Positions 32,775 to 57,487 of a DNA stretch of 64,000 nt are shown piece by piece. Both the position numbers and the translations under genes were made by a program. Below the pieces are notes generated by a model, which was given only the letters and a program-made list of their open reading frames with translations, was not told the origin of the DNA and ran no database searches. Location of the stretch: the NCBI RefSeq assembly GCF_026967925.1, contig NZ_JAPVBI010000001.1, positions 186,001 to 250,000 of the forward strand, in the 5' to 3' direction. How positions within the stretch are numbered: the first letter of the stretch is position 1; each line of letters begins with the position of its first letter. Origin of the DNA: Modestobacter sp. VKM Ac-2985. GTDB taxonomy: Bacteria; Actinomycetota; Actinomycetes; Mycobacteriales; Geodermatophilaceae.

Positions 32775-35700
32775 GTGAAGACGTGGCTGGATGCATGGCC
32801 GGTGTTCCGGCAGCTGACGGGTCCTGATCCGCTGGGGCGCGGCAAGGCCGCCCGCAGCAAGGCGACCGAACAGGTGGTCAGCCGCACGGCCACCGCCGAC
32901 AAGGTGGTGCAGACGGTCTGCCCGTACTGCGCGGTGGGCTGCGGCCAGCGGGTGTTCGTCAAGGACGAGCAGATCGTGCAGATCGAGGGCGACCCCGACT
33001 CGCCGATCAGCCGCGGGCGCCTGTGCCCCAAGGGCAGCGCGACCAAGCAGCTGGTCACCAGCCCGAGCCGGGTCACCACGGTCAAGTACCGCCGTCCGCA
33101 CGGGACGGAGTGGGAGGACCTCGAGCTCGACACGGCGATGGAGATGATCGCCGACCGCGTGCTCGACGCCCGCCGCAAGGGCTGGCAGGACGAGGTCGAC
33201 GGCCACGCCGTCAACCGCACGCTGGGCATCGCGAGCCTCGGCGGCGCGACGTTGGACAACGAAGAGAACTACCTGATGAAGAAGCTGTACAGCGCCATGG
33301 GCGCGGTGCAGATCGAGAACCAGGCCCGCATATAGCACTCTGCGACGGTCCCCGGTCTGGGGACCTCGTTCGGTCGTGGCGGCGCCACGAACTTCCAGCA
33401 GGACCTGGTGAACTCCGATTGCATCGTGATCGAGGGTTCGAACATGGCCGAGTGCCACCCGGTCGGCTTCCAGTGGGTCATGGAGGCCAAGGCGCGGGGC
33501 GCGAAGATCGTCCACATCGACCCGCGGTTCACCCGCACCAGTGCGCTCGCCGACCTGCACGTCCCGCTGCGCGCCGGCACCGACATCGCCTTCCTCGGTG
33601 GGCTGATCAAGTACGTCCTGGACAACGACCTGGACTTCCGCGAGTACGTCGTCGCCTACACCAACGCGGCGGCGATCCTGCGTGAGGACTTCCAGGACAC
33701 CGAGGACCTCGACGGCCTGTTCTCCGGCTTCGACCCCGAGACCGGGCAGTACGACGAGACCACCTGGCAGTACGAGGGGGTGAACGTCCCGGCCTCGGCC
33801 GGTCAGCGCTCGCCCAGCCAGCCCGGTGGGTCGGCCTTCCGGGACGACGGCGACCGGCCCGACGACGCCGCGGACGACGGCACCGACGACGAGACCGAGG
33901 ACGTCAAGGAGGCCGACCAGCAGCAGGGTGCCCAGGGGTCGGCCGACATCCACGGCAAGCCCATGCGGGACGAGACGCTGCAGCACCCGCGCTGCGTCTT
34001 CCAGGTGCTCAAGCGGCACTACGCCCGCTACACCCCCGAGATGGTCAGCGACATCTGCGGCATCGAGCCGGAGGTGTTCCTCAAGGTCGCCGAGTGGGTC
34101 ACCGCCAACAGCAACCGCGAGCGGACGACGGCGTGGGTCTACTCGGTGGGCTGGACGCACCACACCGTGGGCGTGCAGTACATCCGGACGGCGGCGGTGC
34201 TGCAGGCGCTGCTGGGCAACATGGGCCGCCCGGGTGGCGGGATCCTGGCGCTGCGCGGCCACGCCAGCATCCAGGGCTCCACCGACATCCCGACGCTGTT
34301 CAACATCCTCCCGGGCTACATCCCGATGCCCCACGCCCAGCAGCACACCGACCTGGACAGCTTCTGCGCCTCCAGCGACGACCGGGTGGGCTTCTGGGGC
34401 AACATGCGCGCCTACACCACGAGCATGCTCAAGTCCTGGTGGGGCGACGCAGCGACGGCGGAGAACGACTTCGCGTTCAACTACCTGCCCAAGATCTCCG
34501 GTGACCACGGCACGTACACCACGGTCGCCGACATGATCGAGGGCAAGGTGCCCGGCTACTTCCTGGTGGGGGAGAACCCCGCGGTGGGCAGCGCGAACGG
34601 GCGCATGCAGCGCTTCGGGCTGGCCAACCTGGAGTGGCTCGTCGTCCGCGACCTGCAGATGATCGAGTCGGCGACGTTCTGGAAGACCGCCCCGGAGATC
34701 GAGACCGGGGAGCTGGTCACCGAGGACATCGCCACCGAGGTCTTCTTCATGCCCGCGGCCACGCACGTGGAGAAGGAGGGCACCTTCACCCAGACGCAGC
34801 GGCTGCTGCAGTGGCGGCACAAGGCGGTCGAGCCGCCGGCCGACTGCCGCAGCGACCTGTGGTTCTACTTCCACCTGGGCCGCAAGCTGCAGGAGCGGCT
34901 GGCCGGGTCCACCGACCCGCGCGACCGCCCGCTGCTGGACCTCGTCTGGGACTACCCGACGCACGGGGAGCACGACGAGCCCGACGCCGACGCCGTCCTG
35001 CGGGAGATCAACGGCTGGGGTCCGGACGGCGAGATGCTCTCGACCTACCTGGACATGAAGGACGACGGGTCGACCACCGGCGGCTGCTGGATCTACACCG
35101 GCGTCTACGCCGACGGGGTCAACCAGGCCGCCCGGCGCAAGCCCGGCCGGGAGCAGGACTGGGTGGCCGCCGAGTGGGGCTGGGCCTGGCCGTCGAACCG
35201 CCGGGTGCTCTACAACCGCGCGTCCGCCGACCCCGACGGCAAGCCGTGGAGCGAGCGGAAGGCCTTCGTCTGGTGGGACGAGGAGGCCGGGAAGTGGACC
35301 GGTCACGACGTCCCCGACTTCGAGGCGACCAAGCGGCCGGACTACGTGCCGCCGGAGGGCGCGGTCGCGCAGGCGGGCATCGGCGGTGCCGACCCGTTCG
35401 TCATGCAGGCCGACGGCAAGGCCTGGCTGTACGTGCCGGCGGGGCTGGCCGACGGCCCGATGCCGGCGCACTACGAGCCGGCTGAGTCGCCGGTGGAGAA
35501 CGCGCTCTACGGCCAGCAGGCCAACCCGGGCCGGGAGGAGATCCACGCCGCCTACAATCGGGGCAACCCGCCGCGCAGCGAGGTCTACCCGTTCGCGATG
35601 ATCACCTACCGGTTGACCGAGCACCACACCGCCGGGGCGATGAGCCGCACGCTGCCGTACCTGTCGGAGCTGCAGCCGGAGTTCTTCGTCGAGGTCAGCC

Positions 35701-36095
35701 CGCAGCTGGCCGAGACGCGCGGTCTGGAGAACGGCGGCTGGGCGACGCTGATCAGTGCCCGGGCGGCGATCGAGGCCCGGGTGCTGGTCACCGAGCGGAT
35801 GCGGCCGATGAAGGTCAAGGGCGGCCAGGTCGTCGAGACGATCGGCATCCCGTACCACTGGGGTGAGCAGGGGCTGTCCACCGGCGACTCCGGCAACGAC
35901 CTGTTCGGCGTGGTCATGGACCCCAACGTGCACATCCAGGAGTCCAAGGTCGCCACCTGCGACATCCAGCCCGGGCGGCGTCCGCGCGGCAAGGCGCTGG
36001 TGCAGTTCGTGGAGGACCACCGGATCCGGGCGGGCGTGCAGTCGGGGCTGATCCCCAGCGGCGGCCGGGTCCCGGTCGAGGAGGGGACGAGCTGA
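32775..36095 (+). CDS. Formate dehydrogenase alpha subunit, selenoprotein with in-frame TAG as Sec codon
   Basis: A 1106-residue molybdopterin (W/Mo-bis-MGD) formate dehydrogenase if the TAG at 33333-33335 (codon 187) is read as selenocysteine. The [4Fe-4S] cysteines are at residues 49, 52, 56 and 84 (CPYCAVGC ... RLCPKG). The TAG falls exactly where FDHs have Sec or Cys: ENQARI-x-HSATVPGLGTSFGRG; the frame is open on both sides and both halves match FDH throughout (FGRGGATNFQQDL, HVDPRFTR-like HIDPRFTRTSALAD). A Asp/Glu-rich insertion lies near residues 340-395. No Tat signal, so the active site faces the cytoplasm. Standard gene callers would split this into two ORFs. Start GTG 32775; GTG 32745 is an alternative. 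Confidence 0.93.
33333..33368 (+). promoter_or_regulatory. UAG selenocysteine codon and downstream SECIS hairpin
   Basis: TAG (33333-33335) is followed 11 nt later by a perfect 7-bp stem, GGTCCCC (33347-33353) with GGGGACC (33359-33365), and loop GGTCT (33354-33358). Three more pairs (CGA 33343-33345 with TCG 33366-33368) extend it past a single bulged C. The loop starts 18 nt after the stop codon. From memory, E. coli fdhF has the same GGUCU loop at the same distance from its UGA. Bacterial SECIS elements need a loop G-U bound by SelB, which this has. UAG decoding of Sec has been reported for Geodermatophilus and Blastococcus. Confidence 0.88.
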
Positions 36096-36145
36096 TGCGG
36101 CACGTCCCGATGGAGTGCGACCCGATGGAAGAGGAGCGCTCGTGA
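36095..36145 (+). other. 16-codon mini-ORF bridging fdh alpha and beta genes
   Basis: ATG at 36095 shares a base with the alpha-subunit stop (TGATG) and its TGA stop (36143-36145) overlaps the GTG start of the beta subunit. The peptide is MRHVPMECDPMEEERS. Overlap at both ends suggests a coupling device for stoichiometric translation, although a coincidence in a short gap cannot be excluded. Confidence 0.3.
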
Positions 36146-37266
36146 CCACCGTGAGCTCGGCGAGCCCGGCGCTCACCGGCAACGACCCGGCCAACCGGCT
36201 GTTCGGTCCGCTGCCCGACGTGAGCGGCGAGGCCGGTTACGAGGAGGACCACCCGGCGCGGGTGGGCTTCTTCACCGACACCTCGGTGTGCATCGGCTGC
36301 AAGGCGTGCGAGGTCGCCTGCAAGGAGTGGAACACGCTCCCGATGGACGACGCGGACGGCAACCGCGACGCCATGGCGCTGACCGGGATGTCCTACGACA
36401 ACACCGGCATGCTCGGTGCCAACTCCTGGCGGCACGTGGCGTTCGTCGAGCAGAGCCGCGCCGTCGACCTGCCGATGCCCGGGATCGGGCTGCCGGGAGC
36501 AGGTGCGCAGGGTGCTGCCGCACCCGCCGCCGGGTGCGGCAGTGGCGGCGGGGGCTGCGGGAGTGGCTCGGGCGACCCGCACGCCACCTCGGCCGGCGGC
36601 AACGCCGACGGGGTGGGGATGGCCCAGTCCAGCGTGCTCAACGCCGAGGCGCTCAGCGAGTTCGACCCGCAGACCGGTCAGTCGGCCGACCGGGAGATCC
36701 GCTGGCTGATGTCCTCCGACGTCTGCAAGCACTGCACCCACGCCGGCTGCCTGGACGTCTGCCCGACCGGGGCGCTGTTCCGCACCGAGTTCGGCACCGT
36801 GGTCGTGCAGGGCGACATCTGCAACGGCTGCGGCTACTGCGTGCCGGCCTGCCCCTACGGCGTCATCGACCAGCGCAAGGAGGACGGCCGGGTCTTCAAG
36901 TGCACGATGTGCTACGACCGGCTGACCGACGGGCTGCAGCCGGCCTGCGCCACCGCGTGCCCGACCCAGTCGATCCAGTTCGGCGACCTCGATGAGCTCC
37001 AGGCCCGGGCCGACGCCCGGCTGGCCACGCTCAAGGAGCAGGGCGTCGAGACCGCCCGGCTCTACGGGCGCGACGAGGACGACGGCGTCGGCGGCGCGGG
37101 GGCCTTCTTCCTGCTGCTCGACGAGCCGGAGGTCTACGGGCTCCCGCCGGACCCGATCGTCACCACCCGGGACCTGCCGTCGATGTGGAAGCACGCCGTC
37201 GGCGGGGCGGCCATGGTCGTCGGCTTCGCACTCTCCGCCGTGCTCGGCTCGAGGCGCTCCCGATGA
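36142..37266 (+). CDS. Formate dehydrogenase beta subunit, four [4Fe-4S] clusters, C-terminal membrane anchor
   Basis: A 374-residue FdhB/HybA-type ferredoxin subunit. Four cysteine groups are visible: CIGCKACEVACKEW (C50, 53, 56, 60), CKHCTHAGCLDVCP, CNGCGYCVPACPYG, and CTMCYDRLTDG ... CATACP, sixteen cysteines for four clusters. A Gly/Ala insert with extra cysteines (CGSGGGGCGSG, about residues 120-160) lies between the first and second group. The C-terminal HAVGGAAMVVGFALSAVLG is a single membrane helix. GTG 36142 follows GAGGAG. It links the catalytic subunit to the membrane NrfD-type subunit encoded downstream. Confidence 0.93.
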   Translation: MTTVSSASPALTGNDPANRLFGPLPDVSGEAGYEEDHPARVGFFTDTSVCIGCKACEVACKEWNTLPMDDADGNRDAMALTGMSYDNTGMLGANSWRHVAFVEQSRAVDLPMPGIGLPGAGAQGAAAPAAGCGSGGGGCGSGSGDPHATSAGGNADGVGMAQSSVLNAEALSEFDPQTGQSADREIRWLMSSDVCKHCTHAGCLDVCPTGALFRTEFGTVVVQGDICNGCGYCVPACPYGVIDQRKEDGRVFKCTMCYDRLTDGLQPACATACPTQSIQFGDLDELQARADARLATLKEQGVETARLYGRDEDDGVGGAGAFFLLLDEPEVYGLPPDPIVTTRDLPSMWKHAVGGAAMVVGFALSAVLGSRRSR

Positions 37267-37278
37267 CCGACGTCCGTG

Positions 37279-37300
37279 GGCAGAAATGGCCATTTCTGCC
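37279..37300. promoter_or_regulatory. Perfect 22-nt palindrome inside the formate dehydrogenase operon
   Basis: GGCAGAAATGG (37279-37289) followed by its exact reverse complement; 12 nt after the beta stop and 21 nt before the next start. The same 22-mer forms the core of the terminator-like palindrome at 17790-17819. Inside an operon it may act as an mRNA-processing or partial-termination element that lowers expression of the membrane subunit. Confidence 0.55.
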
Positions 37301-37321
37301 GCCATCAGAGGGGCTGTTCCT

Positions 37322-38422
37322 GTGACCGAGGGACTGGCGACGCCGGGCGCGGGCTGGCGGCGGGCCGACGGCCCGCCGGCGCAGGCGCGGGAGAAGAAGC
37401 GGCGCAAGGGCGGCCGCCGCGGTGGCGGCCGGGACGGCGACCCGACCGTCGACGAGGCCGAGTTCACCTCGTACTACGGCCGGCCGATCATCAAGCCGCC
37501 GGTGTGGAAGACCCCGGACGTGCCGCTCTACCTGTTCCTGGGTGGTGCGGCGGGCACCTCGGCGGTGCTCGGCGCGATCGCCGACGTCACCGGTCGCCCG
37601 GCGCTGACCCGCGCCGCGCACTACACCGCCGGTGGCGGGGCGTTGGCCTCGGTCGTCTGGCTGATCCACGACCTCGGCCGGCCGGCGCGCTTCCTGCACA
37701 TGCTGCGGGTGATCAAGCCGACGTCGCCGCTGTCGGTGGGCTCCTACATCCTGGCGCCGTTCAGCGCGCTCACCGCGGCGACTGCGGGGCTCCAGCTGCT
37801 GGAGGCCTTCCCGAAGCTGCAGGTGCTCGGGCTGACGCGGATCGCCGGCTGGTTCCCCGGGCTGCGGAAGACCGTGGGCGGCGTCTCGGCGGTCTTCGGT
37901 GGCCCGATGACCACCTACACGGCGGTGCTGCTGGCCAACACCGCGGTGCCGTCGTGGCACGAGCCGTACAAGGAGCTGCCGTTCGTCTTCGCCGGCTCCG
38001 GGATGGCCGCCGGCGGGGGCATCTGCATGGCGTTCACCCCGGTCGCCGAGGCGGGGCCGGCCCGGAAGATGGCGGTCGCCGGCGCGGCGGTCGAGCTGGT
38101 CGCGATGCACAAGGTCGAGCACGACCACGGCATCGTCGGTGAGCCGTACCAGCTGGGCAAGGCCGGGACGATGATGAAGGCCGCGAAGGCCTGCACCGCC
38201 ACCGGCGCCGGGCTCACCGTGGTGGCCGGCCGCACCCGGGTCGGTGCCGCGGTGTCCGGGGCACTGCTGGCGGCCGGTTCGCTGCTGACCCGGTTCGGCG
38301 TCTTCGAGGCCGGCATGGCCAGTGCCCGCGACCCGAAGTACACCGTCGTGCCGCAGCGGGCCCGGATGGCCGCCCGCGAGGAGCAGAAGCGCCAGGACGA
38401 GGCCAGCACCATCACCCGCTGA
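37322..38422 (+). CDS. NrfD/PsrC-type membrane subunit of formate dehydrogenase
   Basis: A 366-residue NrfD-like protein. After a basic, Gly/Arg-rich N-terminus and the motif FTSYYGRPIIKPPVWKTPDVPLYLFLGG, there are about eight hydrophobic helices (for example ALASVVWLIHDLGRPARFLHML with the conserved D-L-G-R-P). NrfD subunits carry quinone chemistry without heme, so the complex would pass formate electrons to menaquinone. GTG 37322. It is the final gene of the alpha-beta-NrfD operon; a PsrC-like protein fits a respiratory rather than a hydrogen-lyase role. Confidence 0.9.
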   Translation: MTEGLATPGAGWRRADGPPAQAREKKRRKGGRRGGGRDGDPTVDEAEFTSYYGRPIIKPPVWKTPDVPLYLFLGGAAGTSAVLGAIADVTGRPALTRAAHYTAGGGALASVVWLIHDLGRPARFLHMLRVIKPTSPLSVGSYILAPFSALTAATAGLQLLEAFPKLQVLGLTRIAGWFPGLRKTVGGVSAVFGGPMTTYTAVLLANTAVPSWHEPYKELPFVFAGSGMAAGGGICMAFTPVAEAGPARKMAVAGAAVELVAMHKVEHDHGIVGEPYQLGKAGTMMKAAKACTATGAGLTVVAGRTRVGAAVSGALLAAGSLLTRFGVFEAGMASARDPKYTVVPQRARMAAREEQKRQDEASTITR

Positions 38423-45443: not shown

Positions 45444-45767
45444 CTAGATGATCAGCAGCCCGGCGTCCTCGGCCTGGATGACGGCCTCGATGAGCTTGCG
45501 CGGCGACTTGTACGTCCCGAAGGGGAGCAGGTGCGTGGCGTACCCGTCGAGCATCCGCTCGAGATGGACCCCGTGCCGGCCGTTGATCACGGCGTGGGCG
45601 CTCTTCCCGACCTTCTGGATCACGACCGCGCGCCCCCGGGCCGAGAAGCGTTCCTCGCCTGCGGCGGCAGCGGTCGGCATGTCGTCGAACGGCGGGATGC
45701 CGGTCACGGCCACCGCCGTGCCGACCGCGGCCACGGAGGCCCCCACCATGAACTGTCTGCGGTCCAT
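45444..45767 (-). CDS. Tyrosinase cofactor (MelC1-like) with Tat signal
   Basis: A 107-residue protein starting MDRRQFMVGASVAAVGT, a twin-arginine-type signal. The C-terminal part (GRAVVIQKVGKSAHAVINGRHGVHLERMLDGYATHLLPFGTYKSP) resembles the Streptomyces MelC1 caddie protein, which delivers copper and takes tyrosinase out via Tat by piggyback. It starts 13 nt after the tyrosinase stop, with AGGAGG between. The order is tyrosinase then cofactor, opposite to the Streptomyces melC1-melC2 order. The gene ends with TAG, showing that UAG still terminates ordinary genes here. Confidence 0.88.
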   Translation of the reverse strand: MDRRQFMVGASVAAVGTAVAVTGIPPFDDMPTAAAAGEERFSARGRAVVIQKVGKSAHAVINGRHGVHLERMLDGYATHLLPFGTYKSPRKLIEAVIQAEDAGLLII

Positions 45768-45780
45768 GAGCCCGGTCCTC

Positions 45781-46665
45781 CTAGACGTAGCGGTAGGTGA
45801 GTCGGTTGATGTCCAGGACGTCGGCCGGCGTCCGCGGCACGACCAGGCCCTGCATCGTGTCGTTGAGGTTGTGGCCCGTCGGGCCACCGGACACCGGCTG
45901 GTAGTTGGTGATGCCGCGCATCCCCTGCCAGACCCACCAGAGCCGGTCCACGTTGCAGTGGGTCAGCCAGAAGACCGGGTCGTTCGGCGAGGTGCCGGCG
46001 AGCATGTCGCCGCCCACCCACCGGTGCACCAGGTTGTGCATGCGGGGGCCTCCGGACCAGCCCTCCATCCGGTTGCGGAACGTCGCGACGCTGGCGTCCC
46101 AGGGGGACCGGTCGTAGGTGGAGTAGCGGTCGATGGCGTCGGTGACCTGTGACGGGGGCGGCAGCCCGCGTGAGCCGCGGGGGTCGCGGCCGAGGAGCCG
46201 GATCAGGCCAGGAGTGGGACGCGGGACGACGGCGCCGGTGCTGTTGTTCACGATGAGCGCCACCCAGTGCGCGAACGGGCCGTTGAGCACCCGGTTGCCC
46301 CGGGCCGGGTCGCCGTCGCCGCCGATGCCCCCGGCGGTCCACAGCCGCGAGCGTCGCGGGTCGCCGCCGTTGAGGCGTGCCTCGTCCTGCCACCGCCAGT
46401 AGGGCATGCCCTCGATCGACGGGTCGACGGCCTGCAGGGCGTTCTCCATGTCGAGCAGGGTCGCCCGGTGCCACGGGAGGAAGGCGGGTGCGCGATGGGC
46501 CGCGTTGCGGGTGGAGCCCGCGGGCGTCGCGATGCTCATCGCCTCGACGTGCTTGCGGATGAAGTGGTCGTAGGTGCCGTTCGCCTTCAGCACGTTGAAC
46601 GCGGAGGTGAGTCGCTGCACCTCACCTGCGGACAAGCTCAGGATGTTCCGTCTCGTCCCTGTCAT
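45781..46665 (-). CDS. Tyrosinase (type-3 copper monooxygenase)
   Basis: A 294-residue tyrosinase. CuA histidines are at residues 39, 57 and 66 (FIRKHVEAM, NAAHRAP, LPWHRATLLDME); the CuB site is MHNLVHRWVGG and NDPVFWLTHCNVDRLWWVWQ. The enzyme oxidises monophenols to quinones and so makes melanin. It has no signal peptide of its own, consistent with piggyback export by the cofactor protein. ATG 46665 chosen by homology to MTGTRRNIL-type starts. Stop is TAG. The pair sits inside a polysaccharide locus, so melanin may be deposited in or on the matrix. Confidence 0.92.
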   Translation of the reverse strand: MTGTRRNILSLSAGEVQRLTSAFNVLKANGTYDHFIRKHVEAMSIATPAGSTRNAAHRAPAFLPWHRATLLDMENALQAVDPSIEGMPYWRWQDEARLNGGDPRRSRLWTAGGIGGDGDPARGNRVLNGPFAHWVALIVNNSTGAVVPRPTPGLIRLLGRDPRGSRGLPPPSQVTDAIDRYSTYDRSPWDASVATFRNRMEGWSGGPRMHNLVHRWVGGDMLAGTSPNDPVFWLTHCNVDRLWWVWQGMRGITNYQPVSGGPTGHNLNDTMQGLVVPRTPADVLDINRLTYRYV

Positions 46666-56237: not shown

Positions 56238-57487
56238 GCAAGGCCATGCAGCGCGCACAGCGGATCTGGCGACGCACGGTGGTGGGGTCGGGGCTGCCCG
56301 GCCTCGTCGACCGCACGATCATCCGCTCCCGGGTGCGCGCCGAACCGGGCGAGCGGGCCGGGCACCTGCTCCTCGCCGCCCCCGGCGGCGGGAACGTGGG
56401 TGACCAGGCGATGCTCGAGGCGGTGCTGGAGAACACCGCCGGACCGGTGACCCTGGTCGTCCCCGACCGCGCCGCGGTGCAGCTGCCCGCGGAGTTCCGG
56501 GAGCGCGTGGAGGTCCTGGAGATCCCGCACCTGGTCTACGGGACCGGGGCCGACCACCGGGCGTCGGTGGCGTCGTTCGGCCGTGCGCTCGCCGGTGCGG
56601 CCCACCTGTCCGTCCTGGGGGCGGACGTGATGGACGGCCGGTACTCGCTGCCGGCGTCGGTGCGCCGGTCCACCCTGGCCCGGGCCGCGGCTCGCGCCGG
56701 GGTCGAGACCCGGGTCATCGGGTTCAGCTGGAGCGACCGCGCCCGGGTCGCGGCGCGGCGGTCGCTGGCTGCCGCGGCTCGCGACGGGGTGCGCCTCCTG
56801 CTGCGCGACCCGATCTCCGCCGGGCGTGCCCGGCGGGACGGGATCGCCCCGGTCGAGGAGGTCGCCGACGTCGTCTTCGCCGCCCGGAGTGTCGACGGCT
56901 CAGCGGCCGACCAGCTGCTGCAGCACGTCACCAAGCCGGTCGCGCTGGTCAACGTCAGCGGGCTGCTGGCCGACCGGATGGACCAGACCGAGGAGTACGT
57001 CCGGATCGTGGCGGCGCTGCGGGAGCGGGGCCTGCACGTGCTGGTCCTCCCGCACGTCGACCGGGCGCAGGCCGGCGACATGGCGGCCTGCGCCGCCCTG
57101 CTGGCGCGGGTGGGGGAGCTGGCCGACGTGAGCGGTGTGCCGTCGATCCTGAGCCCCGCGCAGGTCCGTGGGCTCACCGCGCGGGCGAGCATCGCGGTGA
57201 CCGGGCGCATGCACCTGGCGGTCATGTCGTTCCTGAACGGCGTCCCGGCGATCACGCTGGCGTCCCAGGGCAAGGTCGAGGGCCTCATGCAGCTGTTCGG
57301 GACGCCCGAGCTGCGCATCGACGCAGCCCCCGGCTTCGCGGCGGAGGTGGTCGAGGTGGTCGACCGGGTCCTCCCGGCGGACTCGGCTGCCCGCGAGTCG
57401 ATCCGGCAGGCACTGCCGGGGGTCGTGGCGATGGCGCGGCGCAACACGGCCGACCTGTCGGCGCCCGTCACCACCGGGCAGGCGTAG
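56234..57487 (+). CDS. Polysaccharide pyruvyl transferase, second copy
   Basis: A 417-residue member of the CsaB-like family. GHLLLAAPGGGNVGDQAMLEAVLEN is the N-terminal G-N-x-GD motif; TGRMHLAVMSFLNGVPAITLASQGK supplies the R-x-H signature near residue 320. It likely adds a second pyruvate ketal or acts on a different sugar than the enzyme at 48127. Translation coupled to the flippase by ATGA. Stop is TAG (57485-57487), immediately followed by the next ATG. Confidence 0.9.
   Translation: MSKAMQRAQRIWRRTVVGSGLPGLVDRTIIRSRVRAEPGERAGHLLLAAPGGGNVGDQAMLEAVLENTAGPVTLVVPDRAAVQLPAEFRERVEVLEIPHLVYGTGADHRASVASFGRALAGAAHLSVLGADVMDGRYSLPASVRRSTLARAAARAGVETRVIGFSWSDRARVAARRSLAAAARDGVRLLLRDPISAGRARRDGIAPVEEVADVVFAARSVDGSAADQLLQHVTKPVALVNVSGLLADRMDQTEEYVRIVAALRERGLHVLVLPHVDRAQAGDMAACAALLARVGELADVSGVPSILSPAQVRGLTARASIAVTGRMHLAVMSFLNGVPAITLASQGKVEGLMQLFGTPELRIDAAPGFAAEVVEVVDRVLPADSAARESIRQALPGVVAMARRNTADLSAPVTTGQA

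Follow-up and report, generated by a model that had tools for sequence, protein, structure and literature searches.

The window analyzed here, a 64,000-nucleotide stretch of the Modestobacter genome (4.72 Mb; nine contigs), corresponds to C1:186001-250000. It contains fdhA, a gene for a formate dehydrogenase alpha subunit (32775..36095, + strand) that comprises 1,106 codons, starts with GTG, and carries an in-frame TAG at codon 187. In a profile search, the fdhA product scored above the cutoffs of NF041513 (1941 bits) and TIGR01553 (963 bits), and it contains the Pfam domains Molybdopterin, Molybdop_Fe4S4, and Molydop_binding. With family models above cutoff and molybdopterin domains, this protein is an FdnG-type formate dehydrogenase. 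Two further ORFs follow on the same strand. One (36115..37266, +; another candidate start lies at 36142) encodes an iron-sulfur (beta-like) formate dehydrogenase subunit with Fer4 domains, although its TIGR01582 score of 134.7 bits is below the model's cutoff of 334.7. The other (36992..38422, +) encodes an NrfD-like membrane subunit (PF03916; 42.4 bits), the true start of which is probably further downstream. A search for RNA families at the gathering threshold found none within the 64-kb window.

The TAG (33333..33335, +) is the predicted codon for a selenocysteine (Sec) at residue 187. A first-pass annotation, made from the letters alone, had described the frame as open on both sides of this codon and its flanking residues as those of the Sec site of formate dehydrogenases, and both descriptions hold. 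Codon 187 is the single in-frame stop before the end of the 1,106-codon gene, and 919 open codons follow it in the translation. In phmmer alignments, the TAG position falls on residue X (Sec) of both 1h0h and 1kqf, which we take to be the formate dehydrogenase of D. gigas and the FdnG protein of E. coli, respectively.

A SECIS-like hairpin (33347..33365, +) lies downstream of the TAG, with the dimensions originally claimed for it: a 7-bp stem (33347-33353 with 33359-33365) that begins 11 nt after the TAG and a GGUCU loop (33354-33358) that begins 18 nt after it. Its single-sequence fold is unremarkable (z = -1.57, with 14 of 200 shuffles as good; z = -1.37 with more flanking sequence), and none of the 33-nt sites folded singly gave a significant energy. 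Because the energy of the lone sequence does not stand out from the shuffles, the support for the hairpin comes from covariation. In an alignment of 36 fdhA sites (19 UAG and 17 UGA sites, with 18 of 37 UAG rows and 1 of 18 UGA rows left out), 96.3% of the cells were paired and the covariation was 0.243, compared with 0.121 for shuffled alignments. The corresponding values for an alignment of 15 UAG sites, eight from fdhA and seven from genes of the UGSC selenoprotein family, were 97.4% and 0.738 (shuffled, 0.245), and 5 of the 7 pairs were changed on both sides. Three of five covariation measures were beyond all 500 shuffles in each of the two alignments. Shuffles did reach the number of pairs changed on both sides (one pair in the 36-site alignment, reached by 497 of 500; 41 of 500 in the 15-site alignment) and the number of further pair types (235 and 51 of 500, respectively). 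The fdhA and UGSC hairpins have their spacing and an RGUNU loop in common in the 15 aligned sites, and they share little stem sequence. A covarying SECIS hairpin is present downstream of the fdhA UAG.

A less favorable explanation of the interrupted frame is that fdhA is a pseudogene, or that the TAG arose through a sequencing error, with only a truncated protein being made. Automatic annotation would end fdhA at the TAG, and decay of the gene is possible in this family, as genome G080 indicates. Against decay, however, stand the long open frame after the TAG and the third-position GC content (GC3) of 0.97 across 37 aligned fdhA genes of the family. The codon itself was followed through a survey of 112 Geodermatophilaceae genomes from 12 genera. 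Some match to FdhA occurs in 110 of them, and in 98 the matches listed include an fdhA match that is at least 66% identical, spans residue 187, and has a single TAG. Comparison with sister species, which the first-pass annotation had named as a check, showed TAG at exactly codon 187 in all 77 family fdhA genes that were read base by base, one gene per genome; for the other 21 of the 98 genomes, the place of the TAG was inferred. The identical codon in 77 of 77 genes, each from another genome, argues against a sequencing error and in practice rules out this whole explanation, which we regard as very improbable. Distant FdhA paralogs (31 to 33% identity) covering residue 187 contained no stop among the matches listed. 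An apparent second in-frame stop in G009 (a TGA in addition to the TAG) was rejected: the gene is intact, the TAG is the only stop before its end, and the TGA was taken as the gene's own stop.

Fourteen genomes lack such a TAG-containing fdhA row among the matches listed (G034, G035, G080, G095, G097, and the nine genomes of genera g6 to g8, G067 to G075). Four of these (G034, G035, G095, and G097) are 67 to 81% complete and carry a tRNA-Sec with a CUA anticodon. G080 (L325 and L084), which is 99% complete, also carries the CUA tRNA-Sec; both of its fdhA copies seem to be disrupted, and their alignment is interrupted at the Sec site or close to it. The codon seen outside the family is a different one. 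In a survey of the order (397 genomes, family members included), 68 of the 73 fdhA rows from other families contained TGA (67 with one TGA and one with TGA plus TAA), 5 contained no stop, and none contained TAG, among the matches listed. The codon was also read in 20 outgroup fdhA genes chosen from the order listing, where it was TGA in 18 and TGC in 2.

The codon directly 5' of the TAG, ATA (33330..33332, +), is likewise invariant in the family genes read (77 of 77). Elsewhere in fdhA, ATA makes up 24 of the 1,489 other Ile codons in 37 family genes (1.6%), and the 20 outgroup genes have ATT (15 genes), ATA (3 genes), or GTG (2 genes) at this position. UGSC genes are free of the ATA constraint, with GAT or GAC as the preceding codon in the 19 sites read. 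The third position is A or T in at least 85% of the 37 fdhA genes at just 4 of the 1,106 codons (186, 194, 201, and 221), counts that are not independent because the genes are related; codon 194 is within the SECIS loop. Codons 201 (33375-33377; CGT) and 221 (33435-33437; GGT) are both conserved, each in 34 of the 37 family genes, despite the high GC3.

The first-pass annotation had seen no sel genes in the window, and the matches above cutoff in the Modestobacter genome indeed all lie outside it. A tRNA-Sec gene with the anticodon CUA (C1:1342216-1342307) scored 64.2 bits against the RF01852 cutoff of 47 and spans 92 nt, counted to the acceptor end. Directly downstream on the same strand are selA (316.6 bits) and selB (279.3 bits, above cutoff), and selD (C1:1333490-1334398; 387.8 bits) is encoded about 8 kb from the tRNA-Sec gene on the strand opposite to tRNA-Sec, selA, and selB. 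All the parts that the first pass had proposed searching for are therefore encoded in the genome, and the situation that it held would speak against Sec, a UCA tRNA-Sec alone or missing machinery, is not what we found. The RF01852 search of this genome gave no UCA tRNA-Sec, since its other four matches are tRNA-Ser and tRNA-Leu.

UAG also retains its role as a stop codon in this organism. RF1 is encoded on C2 (467 bits), and TAG triplets are present at 45444, 45781, and 57485, where three ordinary genes had been said to end. Two of these are the ends of ORFs with Pfam domains (tyrosinase at 45781 and polysaccharide pyruvyl transferase at 57485). The ORF ending at 45444 is doubtful because it lacks a domain and shares sequence with the tyrosinase ORF, which lies on the same strand. 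The two Pfam-domain ORFs and the presence of RF1 bear out the view that UAG is not globally reassigned.

ARAGORN assigns the name tRNA-Pyl to CUA tRNA-Sec genes (e.g., L001:1501-1596), and automatic annotation may therefore report pyrrolysine. Under such a reading, the CUA tRNA would act as a tRNA-Pyl or some other amber suppressor and would insert pyrrolysine or a different amino acid instead of Sec. The present case does resemble pyrrolysine decoding in that a tRNA with a CUA anticodon would read an amber codon. However, the tRNA found here exceeds the cutoff of the tRNA-Sec family RF01852, is encoded directly before selA and selB, and is clearly similar to the UCA tRNA-Sec of sister genera, and the UAG stands at a Sec site in a genome where UAG is still a normal stop. 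Its family and its gene neighborhood, which are not those of a tRNA-Pyl, lead us to reject this reading, the chance of which we put close to nil.

A UAG at the Sec site and a matching CUA tRNA-Sec in the same genome lead us to predict, with a probability of roughly 0.94, that the fdhA TAG at 33333-33335 is read as Sec by this tRNA. In the proposed pathway, SerRS would charge the CUA tRNA-Sec with serine, SelA would convert the seryl-tRNA using selenophosphate from SelD, and SelB would bind the hairpin 11 nt downstream and deliver the tRNA to the UAG. UAG elsewhere would stay a stop read by RF1. Charging, delivery, and Sec insertion at the fdhA UAG are steps predicted from the gene sequences. 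The presence of RF1 means that termination competes with insertion, and the UAG might be decoded inefficiently, the truncated 186-residue product being the intended regulatory outcome under selenium or formate. Yet no sign of a function for the short product was seen in the sequence, and competition from RF2 at UGA is ordinary in other bacteria, according to the accessible part of PMC4513850. We therefore give regulated truncation a slim chance and retain Sec insertion as the preferred reading.

To look at the reach of this Sec apparatus, a covariance model of the hairpin (R1; 33 positions, with only FDH and UGSC sites in its training set) was applied to the Modestobacter genome and gave 23 matches up to an E value of 10. 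The fdhA hairpin, whose own sequence is part of the model, is the best match (E = 2.5e-8). The runner-up (22.5 bits; E = 0.02) lies in a frame that is not coding-like by eye, and no match beyond fdhA was convincing among the 10 frames inspected (the best 6 and 4 others). The UGSC model NF041046 had no match in this genome. Because R1 convincingly finds only fdhA and a UGSC match is lacking, the Sec apparatus of this strain may serve a single gene. In the family survey, 54 of the 112 genomes had NF041046 matches (95 in all), of which 72 contained one TAG and 23 lacked a stop; TGA occurred in none. Thirty UGSC loci (22 with TAG and 8 without a stop) were fetched and checked by motif search. In 19 of the 22 TAG loci, the TAG corresponds to the U of UGSC, the other 3 giving no motif match, and TGC occupies the site in all 8 stop-free loci. 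In G067 and G073, the UGSC matches contain no stop.

The tRNA-Sec matches of at least 64 bits in the 112 genomes were fetched and their anticodons read; weaker matches (about 50 bits) were read in the Modestobacter genome, G072, and G098. A CUA tRNA-Sec is present in 101 genomes from nine genera, including 96 of the 98 genomes with a TAG-containing fdhA among the matches listed. The two TAG-fdhA genomes without a CUA tRNA match, G098 and G099, have completeness values of 72% and 80%, respectively. Seven draft genomes of genera g6 to g8 (G067, G069, G070, G071, G073, G074, and G075; L085-L091) have a UCA tRNA-Sec only, and one genome, G059 (Geodermatophilus sp. LHW52908), has both anticodons. 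No tRNA-Sec match of at least 64 bits was found in G068, G072, G098, or G099, and the weaker ones in G072 and G098 are tRNA-Ser. The seven UCA draft genomes have no fdhA match of the UAG type among the matches listed; a rough search for UGA selenoproteins on the contigs carrying their tRNA-Sec genes yielded only noise.

The change of the anticodon from TCA to CTA is accompanied by a change of the neighboring stem pair from T-A to C-G. For a midpoint-rooted SelA tree, 24 loci were supplied: 18 CUA loci, 4 UCA loci (from g7 and g8, g6 not included), and 2 plasmids. Two of the CUA loci (G105 and G030) yielded no SelA in the fetched flank. In the tree, the 16 remaining CUA rows, two of them partial, are separated from the 4 UCA rows, each group with 100/99 support, and the plasmids fall outside. 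With genera of the family that have a UCA tRNA-Sec, and with no TAG in other families of the order among the matches listed, the codon switch lies inside the family. UGA/UCA likely gave way to UAG/CUA, codon and anticodon together, once, on the branch leading to the nine CUA genera. Some variation was seen around the CUA tRNA-Sec genes themselves. In G105 (L062) and G030 (L068), unlike in most relatives examined, the fetched flank contains no SelA match, and the gene order may differ there. G037 has two CUA tRNA-Sec matches (L071 and L094) on two small contigs, possibly an assembly duplicate.

The genome with both anticodons, G059 (100% complete; 1% contamination), contains the family set, namely, a CUA tRNA-Sec with selA and selB, an fdhA gene with TAG, and a UGSC gene with TAG. 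Its second tRNA-Sec, with the anticodon UCA, is located on contig 17 (NZ_QVQH01000024.1; L078:1169-1263, - strand) and scored 81.8 bits, higher than any other match in the 112 genomes surveyed. At a distance of about 300 bp, on the opposite strand of this contig, is an AhpD-like (CMD) gene of 192 codons (L078:1579-2157, +) with an in-frame TGA in NRCFY-U-MESHA, a CxxU site. The encoded protein exceeds the cutoff of TIGR01926 (112.6 bits) and is below that of the (seleno)protein family NF041238. It is unique among the 112 genomes, the next best match being 40% identical and without a stop.

A scan of 84,980 genomes identified 66 other AhpD-like loci (L219-L284), mostly from Acidobacteria. Among the AhpD-like loci covering the site (n = 63), 62 have TGA and 1 has TGC. 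The 18-nt hairpin sequence CACGCAGAGTTTCTGCGT occurs without any change after the TGA in 56 of 63 TGA loci, G059 included, a conservation that may partly reflect coding constraint because the protein is also conserved there. The conservation of the TGA together with that of the hairpin makes it very likely that the in-frame UGA of the G059 gene is a Sec codon. The gene has a GC3 of 0.68, and the first 20 kb of contig 17 have a GC content of 0.70 and include transposase and integrase-like genes, the remainder of the contig having a GC content of 0.75 to 0.77. We infer that these 20 kb represent an island.

The origin of the UCA tRNA-Sec may be distinct from that of the family set. This tRNA is closest to a tRNA-Sec from an actinobacterial plasmid (78% to Tsukamurella) and at most 64% similar to the tRNA-Sec of 21 of the 22 genomes chosen among the 66 AhpD-like loci, suggesting that the donors of the tRNA and of the protein gene may differ. 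Plasmid relatives of the CMD protein are all less than 60% identical. Plasmids of Arthrobacter (NZ_CP110115.1; L345) and Tsukamurella (NZ_LR134459.1; L346) carry a selB-selA-selC-selD-nrfD-FeS-fdh cassette with a UCA tRNA-Sec, and tRNA-Sec genes thus do sit on mobile DNA. The Arthrobacter plasmid was typed as conjugative. G059 has one SelB above the cutoff, encoded beside the CUA tRNA-Sec. Its CUA and UCA tRNAs are identical over the 30 nt at the 3' end, which comprise the T arm and the 3' strand of the acceptor stem, so that use of one SelA and one SelB by both is plausible. The selB gene of G059 (L082:4709-6484, -) ends in TAG, and hence the factor serving UAG-Sec is itself terminated by UAG. 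As far as can be judged from its genes, G059 has both anticodons and a matching selenoprotein gene for each. We lean slightly toward the interpretation that this strain uses two Sec codons, UAG via the CUA tRNA-Sec and UGA via a UCA tRNA-Sec that arrived by horizontal transfer on a mobile island, next to the AhpD-like CxxU gene, with one SelA/SelB set for both.

The first-pass annotation had called UAG-Sec decoding rare but not unprecedented, which agrees with its publication for Geodermatophilaceae in 2016 and 2017 and with its presence throughout most of the family. UAG-encoded Sec of Geodermatophilus and Blastococcus was reportedly described, with 75Se labeling, by Mukai et al. in 2016 (Angew Chem 55:5337). 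In its accessible sections, the study by Santesmasses et al. (2017; PMC5330540) states, citing Mukai 2016, that a CUA tRNA-Sec occurs in Geodermatophilaceae and, on the basis of three UAG-Sec genomes, that FDH, UGSC, and one AhpC selenoprotein (Blastococcus) use TAG. The same sections describe several tRNA-Sec genes in some genomes and do not mention mixed anticodons. PMC5133445 and PMC10778597 repeat results of the 2016 UAG-Sec paper in the parts available, and the available part of a 2026 review (PMC13188914) does not treat natural UAG. A literature search, with most subscription papers outside its reach, did not turn up any genome described as using both UAG-Sec and UGA-Sec, and a genome with two Sec codons may be new to print.

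The UAG-Sec of Modestobacter fdhA belongs to the published kind. The genomes surveyed here share with the Geodermatophilus and Blastococcus cases the family, the CUA tRNA-Sec, and FDH and UGSC selenoproteins with UAG at the Sec site. The additions made here are the mapping of 112 genomes from 12 genera, the placing of the switch boundary within the family, and one candidate genome with both codons. Canonical UGA-Sec formate dehydrogenases (1kqf and 1h0h) have the enzyme family, the Sec position, the downstream hairpin, and SelA/SelB/SelD in common with the present case, but they depend on a UGA codon, a UCA anticodon, and competition with RF2, in contrast to the UAG codon, the CUA anticodon, and the competing RF1 found here.

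These genomes present a natural change of the Sec codon, in which two unrelated selenoprotein families (FDH and UGSC) have codons that match an altered anticodon, with a hairpin like that of UGA-using relatives and with an ordinary release factor. Because the boundary lies inside one family, sister genera stand before and after the switch, and the order of events is therefore open to study. The two-codon strain raises the testable question of whether SelB selects Sec sites by the hairpin alone, leaving the anticodon free to vary. If the proposed reading of this strain is true, a portable tRNA-Sec of its own would let a UGA selenoprotein gene enter a lineage in which the Sec codon has changed.
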